From positions 771,965 to 835,964 of the forward strand of contig NZ_FMVC01000001.1 of NCBI RefSeq assembly GCF_900101855.1: a stretch of DNA of 64,000 nt, in the 5' to 3' direction. Below the pieces are notes generated by a model, which had not been told where the DNA came from, searched no databases, and saw only the letters and a program-made list of their open reading frames with translations. The DNA is from Flavobacterium anhuiense (lineage in GTDB: Bacteria > Bacteroidota > Bacteroidia > Flavobacteriales > Flavobacteriaceae). Below are positions 29,433 to 39,454 of the stretch, in pieces (within the stretch, counting starts at the first letter, position 1; each line of letters starts with the position of its first letter). The translations under genes and the position numbers were made by a program.

Positions 29433-30086
29433 TTAAACCAACTTTACAAACAAATTAGAAGCAATTTTGTTTGAAATAGACAATTCTCTATCATTCACTT
29501 TAATTTTAACTGACAAATCGAAAGATTCTTTAGAAAGGAATTCAATTTTAGAACCCAAAGCAATTCCTTGTTTATCGAGATATTTCAAAAACTCCGATGA
29601 AGTGTCTTTTACACCAACACAAATCCCAATTTGATTTTCTTCTAGTTCAGATAAAAGCTGTTTTTCGATTTTAATAATTCGTCCGTTTGCATCGGGAATC
29701 GGGTCGCCATGAGGATCTTCCGTAGGATTTCCAAGAAAATCATCCAAACGATTAATCAGTTGTTCCGATTTAATATGTTCTAATTGTTCTGCAATATCGT
29801 GCACTTCATCCCAGCTGAAATTCAATTTTTCAACCAAGAATACTTCCCATAAACGATGTTTTCTCACAATCATTTTGGCAGCCAGTTTTCCATTTTCAGT
29901 CAAAGAAACTCCTTGATATTTTTTATAATTCACCAAATCTTTCTCTGCCAGTTTTTTAAGCATATCGGTTACAGAGGAAGCTTTCGTTTCCATAATTTCT
30001 GCAATTGCATTCGTGCTGACTTCTGTTTCTAATGCAGCAGTCAGATGATAGATTGATTTAAGGTAGTTTTCTTCTGAAAAAGTCAT
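29433..30086 (-). CDS. mntR: DtxR/MntR family metal-dependent regulator
   Basis: I start at the ATG at 30086 (217 residues); the longer frame adds spacer-derived residues. The N-terminal winged helix (EENYLKSIYHLTA, ETKASSVTDMLKKLAEKDLVNYKKYQGVSLTENGKLAA) is followed by the metal-binding and dimerisation domain (RKHRLWEVFLVEKLNFSWDEVHDIAEQLEHIKSEQLINRLDDFLG with His, Glu and Asp ligands) and an SH3-like C-terminal domain. This is the DtxR/MntR/IdeR type. It lies next to an NRAMP manganese transporter on the same strand, which favours manganese sensing over iron. The NRAMP gene ends 89 bases upstream. Confidence 0.88.
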   Translation of the reverse strand: MTFSEENYLKSIYHLTAALETEVSTNAIAEIMETKASSVTDMLKKLAEKDLVNYKKYQGVSLTENGKLAAKMIVRKHRLWEVFLVEKLNFSWDEVHDIAEQLEHIKSEQLINRLDDFLGNPTEDPHGDPIPDANGRIIKIEKQLLSELEENQIGICVGVKDTSSEFLKYLDKQGIALGSKIEFLSKESFDLSVKIKVNDRELSISNKIASNLFVKLV

Positions 30087-30100
30087 TTTTTTTCTTTTTG

Positions 30101-30171
30101 AGTAACAAAGAGACAAAGTTGCAAAGGGACAAAGCTAAAAACTTTGTTACTTTGTCACTCTGAAACTTTGC
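30101..30171. repeat. Inverted repeat between mntH and mntR
   Basis: The stretch AGTAACAAAGAGACAAAG followed by TTGCAAAG (30101-30126) is largely complementary to CTTTGTTACTTTGTCACTCTG with AAACTTTGC (30142-30171). Neighbouring genes are on the same strand, so this may limit read-through from mntH into mntR. It belongs to a family of CAAAG-rich spacers in this genome. Confidence 0.6.
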
Positions 30172-30175
30172 ATCT

Positions 30176-32044
30176 TCATTTAACAATCAACAAAGGTATC
30201 GAAATTTTATGTCTCAATTTATCTACTGTTGTACCGAAAAGTATATCTTTTAGTCCAGTGTGGCCGTGGGTTCCCATAACGAGAATGTCGAATTGTCCAT
30301 CGTTTATGATTTTCGGAATTATTTTGTCTGGTTTTCCAAAACCAAGTTCTGTTTTGATCTTGAATCCTTTTTCTGAAAGCATGTCTTTGTATTTCAGCAA
30401 TAATTTCTCATCGATCGTAGTTTCGTAATCATGTATATGCACTCCATACATTAACGCACCGACCGTTTCTACGATGTGAATGAGGGTATATTCCGTGTCA
30501 ATGCCACCCAATTCGAAGGCTTTATTCAGCGCCGCTTCGTCGGCACTTGAAAAATCTACAGAGACAGCAATGTTTTTTATGCTCTTGCTTTCTCTTGGCG
30601 AAAACTTCAGTTTTAGGTTATGAGGCGAATGATTTATAGCTTTTGATTTGAATTTGGCAATAAATGGTTTGAAAACGATGTATAACAATAAAGCTAAGAA
30701 TCCGAAAGCTAGCGGCACAACCGTAAACCAAAGCACCATTGGATGATTTGAGCTGGCTAGCCAAGAAGTGATTTCGTCATAAACCAATTTGGCATTTAGA
30801 GAAACAATTATGGAGGCAATAATCCAAGAAACGACCTGAGTGGTTCTCGAAATATGAAAACCTTTCATTTTAGATTTGTCACTCACAAAGTGAATCAGCG
30901 GAATAATGGCAAATCCTAATTGTAAACTCAAAATAACCTGACTTAGAATTAGCAATTTCCCCGTTACGCTTTCGCCATAAATTAAAATTACGATTACAGC
31001 GGGAATAATGGCAATCAAACGGGTTATAATTCTACGAACCCAAGGCTGAATTCTGAAATGAAGGTAACCTTCCATTACAATCTGCCCGGCAAGTGTTCCT
31101 GTTACCGTTGAACTTTGGCCCGCAGCGATTAAGGCGACAGCAAATAAGATCGGTGCCCATTTCGTTCCTAAAAGCGGTTCTAGAAATTGGTGCGCATCTT
31201 GAATTTCAGCAACTTCAAACATCCCATTTTTATGGAAAGTAGCGGCGGCAAGAATTAAAATGGCGGCATTTACGAAGAAAGCTAGATTTAAAGCAATCGT
31301 CGAATCGATTAAATTGTATTTTAAAGCTTGTTTGATTCCAGCAGGCGTTCTATCAAATTTTCTGGTCTGTACTAAAGACGAATGCAAATACAAATTGTGA
31401 GGCATTACAGTTGCTCCGATAATTCCGATTGCGATATATAAAGCTGCAGAGTTTGGAATCGAAGGAATAAGCCCAGCTAAAACTTTGTGCACTTCAGGTT
31501 CTGCAAAAATCATTTCGAAAATAAAAGAGAACCCAATTATCGCCACTAAAGCAATAATGAAGGCTTCCATCTTACGAATTCCTTTATTGATCAGGAAAAG
31601 CAGTAAAAAGGTATCTAAAACGGTAATTAGAACAGCTTCGAGTAACGGAATTCCGAAAAGCAGATTAATTCCGATTGCCATTCCGAGAACTTCTGCCAAA
31701 TCGCAGGCTGCAATGGCAATTTCGGCTAAGAAATATAAAATGTAGTTGATGTATTTGGAATAGGTTTCTCGAGAGGCCTGCGCAAGATCGCGCTGTGTTA
31801 CGATTCCGAGGCGCGCGCTTAAACTTTGCAAAAGCAAAGCCATTAAGTTGCTCATCAATAAAACCCAGACTAAAGTGTATCCGAATTGACTTCCGCCGGC
31901 AATATCGGTTGCCCAGTTTCCTGGATCCATGTAGCCAACGCTTACCAAATAAGCTGGGCCTAGAAAGGCTAAAATTTTTCTAAAACCCTTTTTTTTATTT
32001 TGTGTAGAAACTGATTCGTGGACTTCTTCTAAAGATTTGGTCAT
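30176..32044 (-). CDS. mntH: NRAMP manganese transporter fused to a universal stress domain
   Basis: This 622-residue protein has two parts. Residues 1 to about 450 form an NRAMP transporter with about 11 membrane helices: the TM1 metal site DPGNW (D40-P41-G42-N43-W44), the TM6 motif MPHNLYLHSS, and SSTVTGTLAGQIVMEG. Residues about 490-622 are a universal stress protein (UspA) domain, from KNIAVSVDFSSADEAALNKAF to the nucleotide-binding MGTHGHTGLKDILFGTTVDKL. Ordinary MntH proteins are about 410-450 residues, so the extra domain is the special feature. It should import Mn(II), and the Usp part may sense nucleotide or stress. A TAnnTTTG promoter and a palindrome lie upstream. Confidence 0.92.
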   Translation of the reverse strand: MTKSLEEVHESVSTQNKKKGFRKILAFLGPAYLVSVGYMDPGNWATDIAGGSQFGYTLVWVLLMSNLMALLLQSLSARLGIVTQRDLAQASRETYSKYINYILYFLAEIAIAACDLAEVLGMAIGINLLFGIPLLEAVLITVLDTFLLLFLINKGIRKMEAFIIALVAIIGFSFIFEMIFAEPEVHKVLAGLIPSIPNSAALYIAIGIIGATVMPHNLYLHSSLVQTRKFDRTPAGIKQALKYNLIDSTIALNLAFFVNAAILILAAATFHKNGMFEVAEIQDAHQFLEPLLGTKWAPILFAVALIAAGQSSTVTGTLAGQIVMEGYLHFRIQPWVRRIITRLIAIIPAVIVILIYGESVTGKLLILSQVILSLQLGFAIIPLIHFVSDKSKMKGFHISRTTQVVSWIIASIIVSLNAKLVYDEITSWLASSNHPMVLWFTVVPLAFGFLALLLYIVFKPFIAKFKSKAINHSPHNLKLKFSPRESKSIKNIAVSVDFSSADEAALNKAFELGGIDTEYTLIHIVETVGALMYGVHIHDYETTIDEKLLLKYKDMLSEKGFKIKTELGFGKPDKIIPKIINDGQFDILVMGTHGHTGLKDILFGTTVDKLRHKISIPLLIVK

Positions 32045-32100: not shown

Positions 32101-32116
32101 TTTAGACGAGTCTAAA
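32101..32116. promoter_or_regulatory. Candidate MntR operator upstream of mntH
   Basis: TTTAGAC (32101-32107) and GTCTAAA (32110-32116) are perfect inverted half-sites with two bases between them. The element is about 50 bases upstream of the predicted mntH start, next to its -33 region. Short palindromes of this build are what DtxR/MntR dimers bind. It also lies 3 bases after the fur stop codon. Confidence 0.45.
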
Positions 32117-32118
32117 AC

Positions 32119-32511
32119 TTAAATGTTAGAATTTAAACAATTCGGGCATAATCCTGACAATGTAAAGTTGATTTCGTTGACTTTGTAATTGTGCGGCATA
32201 ATGTAACTCGGTTTTACATTTTCAAGACAAGTGATCTCATGACAATTCTCACAGCTAAAATGCGCATGATTATGAATGTGTACGCGCTGATGCGAATGAT
32301 TGCATTTGGCATACTTTACTGTTCCATCTAGATTTGAAATTTTATGAATAACATCTTCATTAATCAAACGATCCAAAATTCTATAAATGGTAACGCGATC
32401 GCACAAATCATTTAATTGTTTGTGAATTTCGGTGTGCGAAAGAGCCGTTTTAGATTTCTCAAACACCTCTAAAACAGCCATTTTTGCTGCGGTATTACGT
32501 GTGGTTTTCAT
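32119..32511 (-). CDS. Fur family metalloregulator, Zur-like
   Basis: This 130-residue repressor has an N-terminal winged helix (ALSHTEIHKQLNDLCDRVTIYRILDRLINEDVIHKI) and a C-terminal dimer and metal domain. Two CxxC pairs (C87/C90 and C122/C125) form the structural zinc site, and the run HSHQRVHIHNHAHF gives the sensory His ligands. The multiple His and Cys are in keeping with Zur, but Fur and PerR cannot be excluded by sequence alone. It is divergent from a MerC-domain gene, and the spacer between them holds two related palindromes. Confidence 0.85.
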   Translation of the reverse strand: MKTTRNTAAKMAVLEVFEKSKTALSHTEIHKQLNDLCDRVTIYRILDRLINEDVIHKISNLDGTVKYAKCNHSHQRVHIHNHAHFSCENCHEITCLENVKPSYIMPHNYKVNEINFTLSGLCPNCLNSNI

Positions 32512-32535
32512 TTTTTATGAAGTTAAAAATTAAAC

Positions 32536-32585
32536 GCAACAATGTTGCAATTGATAAAATTGTATATATTTGCAACAAAATTGCA
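32536..32585 (+). promoter_or_regulatory. merC-side promoter bracketed by two Fur-type operators
   Basis: TTG (32545-32547), 17 bases and TATATTTG (32565-32572) form a promoter for the plus-strand genes. The perfect palindrome GCAACAATGTTGC (32536-32548) overlaps the upstream box. TGCAACAAAATTGCA (32571-32585), a second inverted repeat sharing GCAACAA, overlaps the -7 box and the probable start point. Binding at either would block RNA polymerase. The Fur-family gene next door is the obvious candidate regulator. Confidence 0.55.
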
Positions 32586-32604
32586 TTAAGCAAATGTACA
32601 CGAA

Positions 32605-32958
32605 ATGAAGAAAATAAGCACATCCTTTTACGATATTTTAGGAATTTCTAGCGCAACCATCTGTCTGGTTCATTGTTTGATTTTTCCTCTTTTAACGATT
32701 CTGCCTTTAGGACTGAGTCACAACCCTTTTATAGATTTACTATTTGCCTCGATTGGTTTATTTGCAATTCTCAAAATTATAAAAAAATCGTCTCTTTTGG
32801 TATCGTCTATTTTAGTTGTTTCAATGGCGCTTATATGGATTAGTGTTTTGACAGAACTTTTATTAGACATCCATCTCGATTTGATTTATTTCGGAGGAAT
32901 CGGAATGATTATCGGGCATTTGATCAACTACAAATTACATAGAAATCAAAATCATTAA
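32605..32958 (+). CDS. MerC-domain membrane protein
   Basis: This 117-residue protein has four membrane helices and the MerC hallmark ATICLVHCLIFPLL in the first helix, where the Cys lies three residues before HC. MerC proteins are best known as mercury transporters, but the chromosomal version in Bacteroidota sits with Fur-family regulators rather than mer genes. It probably handles an essential metal (inference). No merA or merR is present. It starts a plus-strand run with a thioredoxin-reductase-like gene 10 bases downstream, and ends with KLHRNQNH. Confidence 0.85.
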   Translation: MKKISTSFYDILGISSATICLVHCLIFPLLTILPLGLSHNPFIDLLFASIGLFAILKIIKKSSLLVSSILVVSMALIWISVLTELLLDIHLDLIYFGGIGMIIGHLINYKLHRNQNH

Positions 32959-32968
32959 AAATAGAAAT

Positions 32969-33874
32969 ATGGAACAGAAGCATTTTGAAGTGATTATCAT
33001 TGGAGGCAGCTACAGCGGATTGTCTGCAGCAATGAGCTTAGGACGTTCTTTACGTCAGGTTTTAGTCATTGACAGCGGTCTGCCTTGTAACAGGCAAACA
33101 CCGCACTCGCATAATTTTATTACACAAGATGGCGAAAAGCCAGCGGTTATTTCGGCGAAAGCCAAATTGCAAGTAGACATTTATAAAACAGTTCAATTTT
33201 ATAACGGACTTGCGGTAAAAGCACTTAAAACAGAAAGTGGTTTCGAAATTGAAACGGAATCAGGAGTTGTTTTTACTTCAAGGAAAGTTTTGTTTGCCAC
33301 CGGAGTTAAAGACTTGCTACCAGAAATTGAAGGTTTTGCTGCCTGCTGGGGGATTTCGGTTTTGCATTGTCCATATTGTCATGGCTATGAAGTTAAAAAT
33401 GAAAAAACGGCCATTATAGCCAATGGTGAAATGGGCTATGAATATGCAAAACTGATTTCCAATTGGACAAAGGACTTGAGATTATGCACCAACGGAAAAT
33501 CGGAATTAACTTTAGAACAAACACAAACGCTTAAAAATCATGGTGTTTTGATTCTAGAAGATGAAATAGATTCTTTTGATCATAAGGATGGATATATTAA
33601 AAATATCATTTTTAAGAACGGAGAAAAAGTTGAGGTAAAAGCAATTTACGCAAGACCGCCCTTTGAACAACATTGTTCAATTCCTGAAACTTTGGGATGT
33701 GATAGTAACGAACAAGGATTGCTGAAAGTAGATGCGATGCAGAAAACAAATATTCCAGGCGTTTTCGCAAGTGGCGATTGTACAACTCCAATGCGATCTG
33801 TGGCGATTGCTGTTTCTACTGGTTCTTTCGCTGGAGCGGTAATTAATAAAGAACTTATTGACGAAGATTTTTAG
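32969..33874 (+). CDS. NAD(P)/FAD-dependent oxidoreductase, thioredoxin-reductase-like
   Basis: This 301-residue flavoprotein has an N-terminal FAD motif (VIIIGGSYSGLSAAMSLGRS) and the redox pair C134-P-Y-C137 in HCPYCHGYEV, the place of the CATC motif in thioredoxin reductases. The C-terminal FAD block GVFASGDCTTPMRSVAIAVSTGSFAGAVI is intact. The NADPH-binding region is shorter and less canonical than in TrxB (IIANGEMGYEYAKL rather than GGGDSA). Such TrxR-like proteins often work on small disulfides. It is 10 bases after the MerC gene and upstream of the TonB receptor and an exported thioredoxin. Confidence 0.9.
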   Translation: MEQKHFEVIIIGGSYSGLSAAMSLGRSLRQVLVIDSGLPCNRQTPHSHNFITQDGEKPAVISAKAKLQVDIYKTVQFYNGLAVKALKTESGFEIETESGVVFTSRKVLFATGVKDLLPEIEGFAACWGISVLHCPYCHGYEVKNEKTAIIANGEMGYEYAKLISNWTKDLRLCTNGKSELTLEQTQTLKNHGVLILEDEIDSFDHKDGYIKNIIFKNGEKVEVKAIYARPPFEQHCSIPETLGCDSNEQGLLKVDAMQKTNIPGVFASGDCTTPMRSVAIAVSTGSFAGAVINKELIDEDF

Positions 33875-34002
33875 TTAATAGAAAGAGCGGTTAAACCATT
33901 TAAGTTATATAAGTTCATTTAGCACAAACTTAAACTTAAATGGTTTTAAAAAAATATAACATCTAGAATTCAATCAGTTTGAAAAATTTTGATTTAGAAT
34001 AA

Positions 34003-34031
34003 TTGTTTGTCAAATTTAATTTTTAGTTTTG
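34003..34031 (+). promoter_or_regulatory. Predicted promoter of the TonB receptor gene
   Basis: TTG (34003-34005), an 18-base spacer and TAGTTTTG (34024-34031) match the Bacteroidota promoter well. The start would be near 34038, about 15 bases before the ATG at 34053. Confidence 0.5.
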
Positions 34032-34052
34032 TCTAAATTTAATTTTAAAAGA

Positions 34053-36305
34053 ATGAAATATTTATTTTTGACAATATTAATACTTTCAGCTATAAGCCTA
34101 CACTCCCAAAATATCTCAGGAAAAGTGGAATCATCAATTCCTGTAGGTCAGGAAATTAATGTTAGTTTATTAAATACAAACTTTAAAACCCAAACCGATT
34201 CTCTAGGATTTTATAAACTAGAAAATATTCCGAAAGGGAACTATAAAATAAATGTAACCTCGACGGGATTCAAACCAGTAACTCAAAGAATTTCTGTTTT
34301 AGAAAATGAAAATTTGAATCTTGATTTTGAATTAGAAGAAGATCAGAATGAATTGAACGAAGTGGTAGTTTCTGGAACCTTAAAACCTGTAAAACGATTA
34401 GAAAGCGCCGTTCCGGTTGAGGTTTATTCGCCAGTTTTCTTCAAGAAAAATCCAACGCCAAGTATTTATGATGCACTTCAGAATATAAATGGAGTTCGTC
34501 CGCAGCTCAATTGTGGTGTTTGTAATACGGGAGATATTCACATAAATGGTCTCGAAGGGCCGTATACTTTAGTAATGATTGACGGAATGCCGATTGTGAG
34601 CAGTCTTTCTACTGTTTATGGCTTGTCTGGAATTCCGAATTCTCTGGTAGAACGAATCGAAATTGTAAAAGGTCCGGCTTCGTCTCTTTACGGAAGTGAA
34701 GCGGTTGGAGGTTTAATCAATATCATTACTAAAAACCCGACTAATGCACCCGTTTTTTCTGCCGATTATTTTACGACTTCTTATTTTGAAAGTAATCTTG
34801 ATTTGGGAATGAAGTTCAATGTTGGGAAAAAAGCAATTTCTCTTATCGGAATTAATTATTTCAATTACGATCAAGTTATTGATAAGGATCACGACAATTT
34901 TACAGATGTTACGCTTTCTGAACGAATTTCGCTTTTTAATAAATGGAGTTTTCGACGAAACCATAATCGCCTTTTTACGATCGCTGCACGCGGAATGTAT
35001 GAAGATCGTTGGGGTGGAGATATTCGTTGGGAGAAAAAATATCGTGGCGGAGATGAAATTTATGGTGAAAGCATTTATACCAAAAGAGCTGAGTTGATTG
35101 GAAGTTATCAATTGCCTTTTGAAGAAAAACTAATGTTTTCTTTTTCTGGAAATGTGCATTATCAAGACAGCCGTTATGGTACGACATCTTATATTGCCAA
35201 TCAGAAAATTGGATTTTTACAGCTGACTTGGGATAAAAAAATTGGACGTAACGATTTGCTGGCGGGAATTGCAAACCGATACACATACTATGACGATAAT
35301 ACGCCTGCAACAAAAGAGGCTGAAAACACTTGGCTTCCTGGTATTTTTGTTCAGGACGAAATTACATTTTCTCCAAAAAGCCAAGTTTTGCTAGGAATGC
35401 GCTATGATTACAATTCTATTCATGGATCTATTTTCACACCGCGATTTGCGTACAGGTTTAAGGCAAACGAAAACACGATTATTAGATTAAATGCCGGAAC
35501 TGGATTTAGAGTTGTGAATTTGTTTACCGAAGATCACGCGGCGTTAACAGGTTCAAGAGATGTTATTATTAAAAACGATTTGAAACCAGAACAATCTCTA
35601 AATGTGAATTTGAATTATATTCAGAAAATTAATTTCGGAAACGGGACCTTTATGGGAATCGAAACCACAGCTTTCTATACAAGATTCAGCAATAAGATCA
35701 TTTCAGATTATGAGACCAACCCAAACGAAATTATCTACGACAATATTGATGGTTACGCTTTAAGTCAAGGAATCAGTACAAATATCGATCTTAATTTTCC
35801 GTCGGGATTAAAATTTATTGTCGGAGCAACGGTTTTGGATAATAAAAACGTCGAAAATGGAATTTCTGAAAGACCTTATCTAACTGAGAATTTTACGGGA
35901 ACATGGAGCATTTCGTATAAAATTCAGCCTTGGAATTTATCAATGGATTACACAGGAAATGTTTATAGTCCGATGAAATTGCCTCTGCTTAGCGAGACCG
36001 ATCCGAGAAGTCCTAATTCTCCTTGGTATAGCATTCAGAATATTCAGTTTACGTATTCGGGATGGAAAGATTTTGAAGTTTATGGCGGAATCAAAAATCT
36101 GCTGAACTTTACTCCGAAGCAAAATAATCCGTTTTTGATTTCGAGAACTAATGATCCTTTTGATAAAAATGTGCAATATGATTCTAATGGAAAAGTTCTA
36201 GTTACGCCTGATAATCCGTACGGTTTGACATTTGACACGACTTATGTTTATGGACAAAACCAAACTATTCGAGGATTTTTGGGATTACGATATACTTTTA
36301 GGTAA
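34053..36305 (+). CDS. TonB-dependent outer-membrane receptor
   Basis: I start at the ATG at 34053 (750 residues), because the signal peptide MKYLFLTILILSAISLHSQ begins there. A carboxypeptidase-regulatory-like domain follows (about residues 20-95). Then come the plug (about 105-230) and a long beta-barrel ending LRYTFR. The plug holds NCGVCNTGDIHINGLEGPYTLVMIDGMPIVSS, with a Cys-Gly-Val-Cys pair before the usual plug motif. This is odd, since most siderophore receptors lack cysteines there. With the Fur-type regulator and MerC upstream, a metal or metal-complex substrate is likely (inference). Confidence 0.92.
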   Translation: MKYLFLTILILSAISLHSQNISGKVESSIPVGQEINVSLLNTNFKTQTDSLGFYKLENIPKGNYKINVTSTGFKPVTQRISVLENENLNLDFELEEDQNELNEVVVSGTLKPVKRLESAVPVEVYSPVFFKKNPTPSIYDALQNINGVRPQLNCGVCNTGDIHINGLEGPYTLVMIDGMPIVSSLSTVYGLSGIPNSLVERIEIVKGPASSLYGSEAVGGLINIITKNPTNAPVFSADYFTTSYFESNLDLGMKFNVGKKAISLIGINYFNYDQVIDKDHDNFTDVTLSERISLFNKWSFRRNHNRLFTIAARGMYEDRWGGDIRWEKKYRGGDEIYGESIYTKRAELIGSYQLPFEEKLMFSFSGNVHYQDSRYGTTSYIANQKIGFLQLTWDKKIGRNDLLAGIANRYTYYDDNTPATKEAENTWLPGIFVQDEITFSPKSQVLLGMRYDYNSIHGSIFTPRFAYRFKANENTIIRLNAGTGFRVVNLFTEDHAALTGSRDVIIKNDLKPEQSLNVNLNYIQKINFGNGTFMGIETTAFYTRFSNKIISDYETNPNEIIYDNIDGYALSQGISTNIDLNFPSGLKFIVGATVLDNKNVENGISERPYLTENFTGTWSISYKIQPWNLSMDYTGNVYSPMKLPLLSETDPRSPNSPWYSIQNIQFTYSGWKDFEVYGGIKNLLNFTPKQNNPFLISRTNDPFDKNVQYDSNGKVLVTPDNPYGLTFDTTYVYGQNQTIRGFLGLRYTFR

Positions 36306-36320
36306 TTTTAATAGCGATTA

Positions 36321-36463
36321 TTAGCCACGAATTCACGAATTATTTTATTGAGATTCAACCAAATAAAATTACACGAATTTATCAAAATTAATTTGTGTAA
36401 TTTTTCTTTCTGTTGTTTTGCATTACAGATAATTTTTGAAATAATTCGTGAATTCGTGGCTAA
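36321..36463. repeat. Long inverted repeat with an inner inverted repeat
   Basis: Arms of 25 bases, 36321-36345 (starting TTAGCCACGAATTCACG) and 36439-36463 (ending GTGGCTAA), are perfectly complementary. Inside lies a second pair AAATTACAC / GTGTAATTT (about 36364-36372 and 36393-36401). The element fills the spacer between the TonB receptor and the thioredoxin gene. The same CACGAATTTCACGAATT motif appears after the AraC gene (about 23738-23754). Confidence 0.7.
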
Positions 36464-36476
36464 AAAACAAAAAAAA

Positions 36477-36941
36477 ATGAAAAAGCTAGTTCTACTTATT
36501 TTCTTCTTCGGAATAACTTCAACAGGATTCTGCCAATTAAAAAGTAGCACTTTTGAAGAAGTAGACAGCTTACAGCAAATCCAAAAACGGAAAACCATTG
36601 TTTTCATCCATACCGATTGGTGTCAGTTTTGCCAACGAATGAAAGCCACAACTTTTAAAAATCAAGAAATTATAGAAAAACTAAACTCCGATTTTTATTT
36701 TATTGATTTTAATGCAGAGGAAAAAAGAGATATTAAATTCAATAATCACACTTTCAAATACCTGCCTTCAGGGAATAATGTTGGAGTTCATGAACTGGCA
36801 TTGCAGCTGGGAACAATTAATAATCAAATTGCCTATCCGACTTTGTGCGTTTTGAATGAGAAAAACGAAATTATTTTTCAGTATAATATTTATTTGAGCA
36901 CAAAAGAGTTTAAAATTCTTTTGGAAAAATTGGAAAAATAA
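36477..36941 (+). CDS. Exported thioredoxin-fold protein
   Basis: I use the ATG at 36477 (154 residues), because the signal peptide MKKLVLLIFFFGITSTGFCQ begins there; a longer frame back to 36348 runs through an inverted repeat. The mature protein is a thioredoxin-like fold with W48-C49-Q-F-C52 in HTDWCQFCQRMKATTF, and the cis-Pro loop in IAYPTLCVLN. This form resembles thiol proteins of the DUF255/thioredoxin_7 type that act in the periplasm. It follows the TonB receptor and a TrxR-like protein, so all could be part of a redox-linked metal system (inference). Confidence 0.85.
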   Translation: MKKLVLLIFFFGITSTGFCQLKSSTFEEVDSLQQIQKRKTIVFIHTDWCQFCQRMKATTFKNQEIIEKLNSDFYFIDFNAEEKRDIKFNNHTFKYLPSGNNVGVHELALQLGTINNQIAYPTLCVLNEKNEIIFQYNIYLSTKEFKILLEKLEK

Positions 36942-36959: not shown

Positions 36960-38135
36960 ATGAACTCTTCACAAATTCCACATTTCGATTACATTTTTAC
37001 AGGAACTGGACTCGCATCCTTGATGACGATTTATAAAATGATTTTGTCTGGGAAGTTCTCTGATAAATCCATTTTATTATTAGATCAAGATGTGAAGAAA
37101 ATCAATGATAGAACTTGGTGTTTTTGGGAAAAGGAGGAAAGTATTTGGAATTCGGTGGTTTCAAAAAAATGGGATTTAGCATTTTTTGCCAATGAAAATT
37201 TCAGACGCGATTTGGATCTAAAACCATATTCGTATAATAAAATCAACGGTTTAGATTTTTATAATTTCGTTTTCGGAGCTATTTTAAATCAGTCTAACAT
37301 TACTTTTTTAAACGAAAAAGTAACTGATATCAACGAACTTGAAACCCACGTTTTTGTTGGAACAGAACAAAACCGATACACTTGTCAGTATCTTTTCAAT
37401 AGTATTTATACTAAGGCTTTCGCCGAAAGGCAAAATAAATATCCTGTTCTACAGCAGCATTTTGTGGGTTGGTTTGTGAAAACGAAAGAAGAAGTTTTTA
37501 ATCCCGAAGAAGTAACTTTCATGGATTTTTCGGTTGAGCAAAAAGGAAATACAAGATTTATGTATGTTCTGCCAACTTCAAAAACAGAGGCTTTGGTTGA
37601 ATATACTTTGTTTTCGGAAAAATTGCTTCCTAAAGAAGAGTACGAAAATGAAATTCAAATTTATCTGAAGAAACTCGGCGCAAGCCAATATCAAATTCTC
37701 GAAAAAGAGGAGGGAAGCATTCCAATGACCTGTTATCCTTTTTGGGAAAGAAATACCAAACGTGTTTTGAATATTGGCACGGCAGGAGGCTGGACAAAAG
37801 CGAGTACGGGTTATACGTTTAAGAGTTCTGACAAAAAATCATCAGCCTTAGTTGAGTTTATTCAGCAAAAAGATTTCCAAATGAAAGACTTTCATAAAAA
37901 ATCTAAGTTTTGGTTTTATGATTTACTGCTTTTAGATATTCTCTATAGAAAAAATGAATTGGGAAGTTCTATCTTTTCTTCTTTGTTTAAAAAAGGAAAT
38001 CCTGAATTGATTTTCAAATTTTTAGATGAAGAAACGACTTTTTCTGAAGATGTTAAAGTTATTTTAAAGTGTCCCAAAATTCCATTTATTAAAGCGTTAT
38101 TTAGAGTGATTTTTCTTTCAAATAAATCTAACTAA
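36960..38135 (+). CDS. crtY: Lycopene cyclase, CrtY type
   Basis: I start at the ATG at 36960 (391 residues). The sequence shows an N-terminal dinucleotide-binding loop (YIFTGTGLASLMTIYKMI), the CrtY signature NDRTWCFWEKEE, and the later motifs FMDFSV, FMYVLPTSKTEALVEYTLFS and GTAGGWTKASTGYTFKSSDKK. CrtY cyclises the ends of lycopene to beta-rings, giving beta-carotene as the precursor of zeaxanthin-type flavobacterial pigments. No crtB, crtI or crtZ is nearby in the window; elsewhere in Flavobacterium they usually form another cluster. It lies 18 bases after the thioredoxin gene. Confidence 0.85.
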   Translation: MNSSQIPHFDYIFTGTGLASLMTIYKMILSGKFSDKSILLLDQDVKKINDRTWCFWEKEESIWNSVVSKKWDLAFFANENFRRDLDLKPYSYNKINGLDFYNFVFGAILNQSNITFLNEKVTDINELETHVFVGTEQNRYTCQYLFNSIYTKAFAERQNKYPVLQQHFVGWFVKTKEEVFNPEEVTFMDFSVEQKGNTRFMYVLPTSKTEALVEYTLFSEKLLPKEEYENEIQIYLKKLGASQYQILEKEEGSIPMTCYPFWERNTKRVLNIGTAGGWTKASTGYTFKSSDKKSSALVEFIQQKDFQMKDFHKKSKFWFYDLLLLDILYRKNELGSSIFSSLFKKGNPELIFKFLDEETTFSEDVKVILKCPKIPFIKALFRVIFLSNKSN

Positions 38136-39043: not shown

Positions 39044-39454
39044 ATGTATCCACTAGAAATGGTAAAACCAATGGAAGCTGAATTGACAGCTGCTGGTTTT
39101 CAAGATTTACATAGTGCTGAAGCTGTTGAGAATGCTATCAAAGCTGAAGGTACCACTTTAGTTGTTGTAAACTCTGTTTGCGGGTGCGCTGCAAGAAATG
39201 CACGTCCAGGAGCAAAAATGAGTTTGGAAGGAGCTAAAAAACCAGATCATTTAATTACTGTTTTTGCAGGTGTTGACAAAGAAGCTGTTGATGCTGCAAG
39301 ACAACATATGTTCCCATTTCCTCCATCTTCGCCATCTATGGCTTTGTTTAAAAACGGAGAATTGGTTCACATGTTAGAGCGTCACCACATCGAAGGACGC
39401 CCAGCTGAATTAATTGCTGAGAATTTGCAAGATGCGTTTAACGAGTTTTGTTAA
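39044..39454 (+). CDS. BrxA/BrxB family bacilliredoxin (YphP-like)
   Basis: This 136-residue protein carries the CGC redox motif in [21 protein letters not shown], the signature of the BrxA/BrxB (YphP/YqiW) family, along with [29 protein letters not shown]. These proteins remove bacillithiol from mixed disulfides on proteins. Bacillithiol is known in some Bacteroidota, so the gene suggests that thiol here, although no bsh genes are in view. It stands alone, with a terminator downstream. Confidence 0.92.

Follow-up and report, generated by a model that had tools for sequence, protein, structure and literature searches.

A putative manganese-uptake module beside a probable Zur-controlled gene group in Flavobacterium anhuiense

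Two described outer-membrane systems for manganese bear on the locus considered here. In Stenotrophomonas maltophilia, a TonB-dependent receptor with the plug motif CQNC is encoded together with a periplasmic thioredoxin-fold protein next to mntR–mntH (PMC13217887, 2026). In that species a reporter fusion is switched on only under combined manganese and iron limitation, is abolished by 80 nM Mn2+ and is derepressed without mntR, and the thioredoxin-fold protein is put forward by the authors as a possible disulfide reductase of CQNC (PMC13217887). Lysobacterales, Sphingomonadales and Opitutales are named as taxa, and the main text contains no word that begins with 'Bacteroid' (PMC13217887). The second system is MnoT of Burkholderia thailandensis, reported as a manganese-specific TonB-dependent transporter (PMC8602904). 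Here we analyse a 64,000-nt stretch of the Flavobacterium anhuiense genome (contig NZ_FMVC01000001.1, positions 771,965 to 835,964 of the forward strand), referred to as the window. An original prediction had joined a Zur-like regulator, MerC, a thioredoxin reductase (TrxR)-like enzyme, a TonB-dependent receptor with a cysteine pair in its plug and an exported thioredoxin into one zinc- or copper-acquisition system. We interpret the locus instead as two metal regulons lying side by side, with a zinc group (zur–merC) inserted into a manganese module (mntH–mntR, the receptor and the thioredoxin-fold protein), a reading to which we give a probability of roughly 0.78. The receptor and its thioredoxin-fold partner are best read as a Bacteroidota variant of this manganese module, which was published in 2026 from a different phylum.

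Gene identities, operators, linkage and the conservation of the plug cysteines can all be observed directly. The receptor gene, for which we propose a role in Mn2+ passage across the outer membrane, runs on the plus strand from an ATG at 34053 to 36305 (Pfam TonB barrel 97 bits, Plug 75 bits), and its CxxC pair, Cys154 and Cys157, is encoded at 34512–34523. After a gap of 171 nt comes the gene for the exported thioredoxin-fold protein, also on the plus strand (ATG at 36477, end at 36941; Pfam Thioredoxin_2 40 bits), with the motif WCQFC. Further upstream on the minus strand lie mntR (29433–30116, likely ATG at 30086), encoding a DtxR-family regulator of the manganese type (Pfam Fe_dep_repress, Fe_dep_repr_C and FeoA), and mntH (30176–32044), encoding an Nramp Mn2+ importer (NCBIfam MntH 601.6 bits, cut-off 430). 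Both are located directly beyond the Fur-family gene, outside the range that the original prediction covered. The Fur-family gene itself, most likely zur, occupies 32119–32511 on the minus strand (Pfam FUR 29.6 bits) and is divergent from merC at 32605–32958 on the plus strand (Pfam MerC 43 bits), whose product is a MerC-family inner-membrane protein that we place in the zinc group. Ten nucleotides past merC, and on the same strand, begins the gene for an FAD dithiol oxidoreductase with a CPYC motif (32969–33874; Pfam Pyr_redox_2 83 bits), a DepH/GliT-like protein referred to below as TrxR-like; the 178 nt between this gene and the receptor hold an operator. The Pfam matches of the fur, merC, TrxR-like, receptor and thioredoxin products all exceed the curated cut-offs. 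Open reading frames and Pfam thus bear out the five genes, their strands and the divergent arrangement first described, and the CPYC and WCQFC motifs are present as claimed.

The assignment of the receptor to manganese begins with its operator. MntR-type boxes are found before mntH (TTTAGACGAGTCTAAA, 32101–32116) and before the receptor (TTTAGTTTTGTCTAAA, 34022–34037, starting 31 bp 5′ of the start codon). The box is a 16-bp palindrome, TTTAGN6CTAAA, and was scored as present when at least 11 of 14 positions matched within 250 nt upstream of a gene. It precedes the receptor at 115 of 150 loci, compared with 34 of 823 other long open reading frames from the same loci, and it precedes mntH in 24 of 30 relatives; upstream of feoA (0/31) and of the bacilliredoxin gene (0/43) it is absent. 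A first run on 76 receptors had found the box in 65, with base shuffles giving about 3.5%, and some more distant loci carry the variant GTTAGN6CTAAC. The receptor has the box at 65 of 79 loci where mntR adjoins and at 50 of 71 where it does not, so the box is not merely mntR's own. The receptor shares with mntH an operator of the DtxR-family manganese type, placing it in the predicted MntR regulon, and control of a receptor of such architecture by MntR and manganese is supported by the experiments in another species, from which it may be extended to this locus by analogy.

The second line of evidence is linkage. We used 38 family loci, 40 hand-chosen genus loci (L069–L108; 37 with the receptor, out of 92 receptor-bearing genomes, and with merC over-represented) and 80 named loci from one scan, of which 78 are family members, the distant matches L210 and L211 (25–26% identity, no CxxC) being excluded. 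Of 120 Flavobacteriaceae genomes (one per genus), 39 encode the receptor, as do 92 of 150 Flavobacterium genomes; across the phylum Bacteroidota the figure is 70 of 296 sampled genomes. Among the named records listed, from which those near the window may be excluded, the receptor's closest match is from Flavobacterium anhuiense (97%). An mntR relative lies within 8 kb of the receptor at 37/38 family, 30/37 genus and 49/78 named loci, and is divergent from and adjacent to it at 30, 10 and 39 of these, respectively. Putative manganese importers recur as well: a ZIP transporter (Pfam Zip; ZupT-like, under the cut-off) is near the receptor at 19/38, 10/37 and 17/78 loci, and MntH at 1/38, 18/37 and 10/78. 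At the 38 family loci, single-sequence BLAST, which very diverged copies could escape, detected no fur, merC or trxR in the vicinity of the receptor. It is this combination, an MntR-type operator together with mntR linkage where fur, merC and trxR are not found, that leads us to assign the receptor to the manganese rather than the zinc unit. Conversely, merC is present in 36 of 150 Flavobacterium genomes, 32 of which have it no more than 10 kb from the receptor, and this suggests that the merC group was inserted between mntH and the receptor at the level of the genus. One Flavobacterium locus (L098) has a receptor gene interrupted by a stop.

Whether the regulator senses manganese or iron can be approached from its residues. 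The nearest solved structures to the mntR product are 5zr4, SloR and ScaR, and 116 of 117 mntR homologues have Glu at the position that we take to be Glu99 in MntR and Cys102 in DtxR. Because of this Glu and the nearest structures, a manganese-type regulator is favoured over an iron-type one, with the qualification that the Asp8 position holds Asn in 93 homologues, Asp in 17 and His in 7, and that Asn is not the textbook MntR residue there. Within the same regulon the cargo could still be Fe2+, or Fe2+ and Mn2+ together, with a DtxR-type regulator governing a low-iron/low-manganese receptor. Fe2+ is better suited to thiols than Mn2+, and feoB is near the receptor at 17/38 family and 19/37 genus loci. 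The Stenotrophomonas locus also requires limitation for both metals together (PMC13217887). Set against this are the lack of an MntR-type box before feoA, the manganese-type ligand residue and nearest structures of the regulator, and the presence of the same box at mntH. We consider an iron-carrying receptor unlikely, although it survives best of the alternatives, and the operator and mntR linkage favour Mn2+ (or Mn/Fe) over the zinc or copper originally proposed as the metal that we infer for the receptor.

The genes between mntH and the receptor tell a different story. The fur–merC gap contains two copies of a Zur-type box, CGCAACAATGTTGCA (32535–32549) and TGCAACAAAATTGCA (32571–32585), with the consensus YGCAAYNNNRTTGCR. 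This box precedes fur at 20 of 20 loci and merC at 18 of 20, compared with 2 of 150 for the receptor and 1 of 823 in the background, and the window gap before the receptor (33875–34052) has no exact match to it; by this measure the fur–merC group falls within the Zur regulon and the CxxC receptor outside it. The znuD row of the upstream-box counts was left unused, its weak matches including the CxxC receptor itself. Genome-wide, there are eight sites versus four in the control, and four of the eight are intragenic. The sole other intergenic pair, with like spacing, stands before genes for a small His-rich protein, two lipoprotein-like products, a receptor and a further protein (L121:8367-13664). 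This second receptor is nearest to the NCBIfam heme-type (135 bits) and ZnuD (125 bits) models and the further protein to AztD (87 bits), all below cut-off, and the group is a probable zinc-uptake operon of the same genome.

A GTPase gene follows merC in several relatives, and the one product scanned matches ZigA at 557 bits (cut-off 600). For COG0523 proteins, the F. anhuiense genome itself yielded no more than two weak matches to PF02492 (28.8 and 24.9 bits). We found two FUR-family genes in the genome, the one discussed here and a canonical one. The gene at 32119–32511 most likely encodes Zur, because its operator is shared with the ZnuD-like/AztD-like operon, a ZigA-type GTPase follows merC and it is one of only two FUR genes; the regulator had been correctly described as Zur-like. 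The view that MerC serves an essential metal rather than detoxification also gains from the Zur-type operator before merC and from the GTPase. Longer versions of the zinc group are seen at L072:4806-6020, L097:5366-6574 and L099:9446-10660, where an AztD-like protein is present, accompanied in L097 and L099 by a second receptor. Mercury resistance was considered and set aside: among the genes beside merC, to which this check applies, the neighbours are FUR-family and Pyr_redox_2 genes with no merR or merA, and the MerA model scores 49 bits against a cut-off of 454.

For the TrxR-like enzyme, the identity of a classical thioredoxin reductase was rejected. It reaches 77.8 bits against the TRX_reduct equivalog cut-off of 343, and its nearest relatives in the PDB are 3fbs, DepH (phmmer E-value 2e-49), 4ntd (2e-43; presumably HlmI) and GliT (7e-40), all ahead of classical TrxR. 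With the DepH/HlmI/GliT dithiol oxidoreductases it shares the CPYCHGYE region and similarity over the whole length, and it differs from them in that no natural-product genes were noticed beside it in the window. Near the receptor, a TrxR-like gene was seen in no loci other than those of Flavobacterium, and orthologues occupy the locus in the genus. In L212, from the same genome as L099, the gene and mntH instead point away from each other and have an MntR-type box in the gap, so that the enzyme may belong to either regulon.

Proximity of the two units raises the possibility that they are coupled, with transcription from the Zur promoter reading through merC and the oxidoreductase gene into the receptor, so that zinc starvation would also raise the manganese receptor. 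The genes share a strand and the gap is 178 nt, merC stands immediately 5′ of the receptor in L133 and L214, and the merC–receptor neighbourhood is retained in divergent Flavobacterium species. Nevertheless, the receptor's own MntR-type box is kept at 17 of 17 merC-holding loci, and we regard read-through as improbable, slightly more so than an iron cargo.

The receptor is a TonB-dependent receptor by fold as well as by profile, with both plug and barrel. Its AlphaFold2 model has a predicted local distance difference test score of 85.5, and the fold is that of Cir and BtuB (VIA-align Z 37.1, root-mean-square deviation 2.9 over 541 residues). NCGVCNTG comprises residues 153–160 and is therefore in the plug, as had been claimed, but not at its very start, since the Pfam plug domain covers residues 117–220. 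The coding pattern CxxCxTGDI occurs once in the 5.34-Mb genome and not at all in the reversed control. Cys154 and Cys157 are invariant in both alignments (29 sequences in A1 and 62 in A2, the window included). Of the 76 first-set receptors, 75 have the CxxC and the remaining one is a gene piece with a stop; all 78 family members among the named loci have it too, and in most first-set receptors the pair provides the only cysteines past the first 30 residues. CGVC in the window is replaced by CNVC, CNIC or CSVC in relatives; H369, D415, E493 and H495 are also conserved in the receptor alignments. A profile alignment to Cir places the CxxC in a loop of the plug, at a position where the Cir residues differ; this loop presumably faces the ligand in other receptors and touches it in BtuB. 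Sister receptors from Persicobacter, Bacteroides, Parabacteroides, Phocaeicola and Prevotella have CQNC or CQSC at the same plug position at 8 of 8 loci; in the gut Bacteroidales loci L226, L227 and L230, a small His-rich protein (113–126 aa) precedes the CQNC-type receptor. Plasmid receptors from Sphingomonas, Thiothrix, Sulfitobacter and Haliscomenobacter were tried as a link to the Stenotrophomonas receptor and rejected, as they have no CxxC at that position.

This structural likeness admits another explanation, in which the ligand is organic, either cobalamin-like or a thiol metallophore, with the CxxC serving as a structural disulfide. Cir and BtuB are the closest folds and the CxxC aligns to what we take to be a ligand-contacting loop of BtuB, and genes for ATP-binding cassette (ABC) transporters lie a few kilobases 3′ of the receptor in some family loci (ABC ATPase 8/38, ABC-3 type permeases 6/38). 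The ABC-3 permease genes are about 5 kb 3′ of the receptor (L042:3875-5080 and alike), and the single example scanned belongs to the metal type, with SloB as its best NCBIfam model, below cut-off, so this evidence points to a metal too. Together with the MntR-type operator and the linkage to manganese transporters, it makes an organic cargo doubtful, more so than read-through.

The exported thioredoxin-fold protein is a genuine, recurrent partner of the receptor, as first suggested. In a profile search, a relative is encoded on the same strand within 1.5 kb 3′ of the receptor at 2/38 family, 23/37 genus and 22/78 named loci, 47 of 153 in all, a slightly low figure in that the L077 gene overlaps the receptor beyond the limit of the count. 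The junction is a gap of at most 30 nt or an overlap in 31 of the 47, and WCxxC is present in all 47 proteins. The gene occurs both with and without fur, merC and trxR and hence goes with the receptor. It is plausible, by analogy with the Stenotrophomonas system, that the protein reduces the plug CxxC. A bolder and quite tentative extension, which we hold to be unlikely while ranking it a little above an iron cargo, is that the CxxC is a thiol/disulfide gate through which oxidative stress or the redox state outside the cell switches the manganese receptor, to be reset by the thioredoxin-fold protein. If such a gate operated, manganese import at the outer membrane would be tied to defence against oxidants, and this in a receptor family found across the Bacteroidota.

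Several observations weigh against assignment of the receptor and its partner to manganese. The operator evidence is incomplete: 35 of 150 receptor upstream regions have no box at the chosen score, and the box also scores before merC (5/20), ZIP (9/46) and lycopene cyclase (4/50) genes. It is found upstream of mntR in 73 of 117 cases, made up of 62 of 78 when the gene is divergent and adjacent and 11 of 39 otherwise, so this count is mostly the receptor's own site seen from the opposite side. Genome-wide, TTTAGN6CTAAA is not enriched (68 sites versus 67 in the reversed control), and a stricter pattern that fails to match the mntH site is rarer than in the control (6 versus 15); its six sites comprise the receptor's, four intragenic ones (L125, L127, L128 and L129) and one at L126, between two genes that converge. 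The case for MntR is thus one of box position and conservation rather than of genome-wide enrichment. The sets of loci are partly redundant (L035 and L143 seem to come from one genome), making the counts non-independent, and no mntR relative was seen at 29 of 78 named loci within flanks of up to 7 kb. As for the cysteines, Mn2+ is rarely bound by thiols, and no thioredoxin relative was found beside the receptor at 36 of 38 family loci despite an intact CxxC. The eight sister CQNC/CQSC loci, searched over stretches of 12–18 kb, yielded no mntR, mntH, ZIP or thioredoxin relative, implying that a CxxC plug need not mean manganese. Even in Stenotrophomonas, manganese still partly lowers expression without MntR (PMC13217887). 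Finally, for Bacteroidota the manganese reading is a prediction from genes.

That Zur governs one zinc or copper system, with joint action of MerC, the TrxR-like enzyme, the Cys-plug receptor and the thioredoxin, is very improbable, because gene order, strand, the double Zur-type box before merC and the closeness of merC to the receptor in 32 of 36 genomes are outweighed by the receptor's box counts (Zur-type 2/150 versus MntR-type 115/150), by the failure to find fur, merC or trxR close to the receptor at any of the 38 family loci, by the receptor being present in 92 of 150 Flavobacterium genomes as compared with 36 for MerC, and by the separate ZnuD-like receptor behind a Zur box in this genome. 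Of the original proposal, a role in metal acquisition stands, as do the Zur-like regulator, MerC as an essential-metal gene and the receptor–thioredoxin pair; control of one unit by the Fur gene is not supported, nor is the inclusion of MerC and 'TrxR' in the receptor system.

In our preferred model of adjoining manganese and zinc regulons, low cytoplasmic Mn2+ would release MntR from the TTTAGN6CTAAA operators of mntH and the receptor gene. Energized by TonB, the receptor would then carry Mn2+, free or bound, across the outer membrane, and import across the inner membrane would fall to MntH, or to a ZIP protein in many other species. The plug CxxC may help to bind the ion, or may be a redox-sensitive element held in its working state by the thioredoxin-fold protein. 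The divergent zur and merC genes, behind their double operator, would be an insertion that separates mntH from the receptor in some members of the genus Flavobacterium, and the oxidoreductase gene probably rides in the zinc transcript after merC. The roles given here to the plug cysteines, MerC and the oxidoreductase are ones that we infer. A widespread Bacteroidota receptor family would thereby gain a probable metal and regulator, and a recently published module of one proteobacterial group would have a much wider counterpart. A precise question also becomes testable, namely what purpose two fixed plug cysteines serve in a receptor under manganese control. For annotation, gene order alone would merge the zinc group with the manganese receptor, and the present analysis separates them.

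Other features of the locus may be noted. The mntH product has a universal stress protein domain fused at its C-terminus (Pfam Usp 70 bits). Between the receptor and thioredoxin genes is an inverted repeat of 28 nt (36318–36345 and 36439–36466, 96% complementary, 93 nt apart). A lycopene cyclase gene (36960–38135) starts 18 nt after the thioredoxin stop, and such a gene is within 8 kb of the receptor at 11/38 family, 20/37 genus and 19/78 named loci. A further thiol-disulfide gene, for a BrxA/BrxB-family bacilliredoxin (39044–39454; 202 bits, cut-off 100), lies a few kilobases 3′ of the receptor in many Flavobacterium loci. No tRNA or structured RNA in the window reached threshold.

In open-literature titles and abstract openings, a scope that leaves subscription journals largely outside, we found no description of a Bacteroidota version of the module or of a Zur-regulated MerC. 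Neither MerC nor MntR is mentioned in the passages of PMC11960050, and the three 'MerC' matches shown for PMC2770081 are to the author name Merchant. Three known systems invite comparison. The likeness to ZnuD-type receptors and Zur regulons, in which a Fur-family regulator, a ZigA-type GTPase, an AztD-like protein and a ZnuD-like receptor are gathered around one operator in this genome or its relatives, belongs to the neighbouring zinc group, whereas the CxxC receptor has no Zur operator. MnoT, compared by description, is likewise a TonB-dependent Mn2+ receptor induced at low manganese; its partner is TseM, a manganese binder secreted by a type VI secretion system, and the passages available mention no thioredoxin partner (PMC8602904). 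The closest counterpart is the CQNC-type receptor–thioredoxin-fold protein module of Stenotrophomonas, compared here by architecture. The differences are (i) a receptor motif of CGVC, or CNVCNTGD, rather than the exact CQNC, (ii) a WCxxC thioredoxin motif with other middle residues, in place of CAPC, (iii) a 16-bp TTTAG-type box instead of a 25-bp palindrome and (iv) replacement of MntH by ZIP in many species, with the thioredoxin often absent. Despite these differences, the two have in common an MntR box before the receptor, adjacent mntR and mntH genes, a CxxC in the plug and an exported thioredoxin-fold protein encoded 3′ of the receptor.

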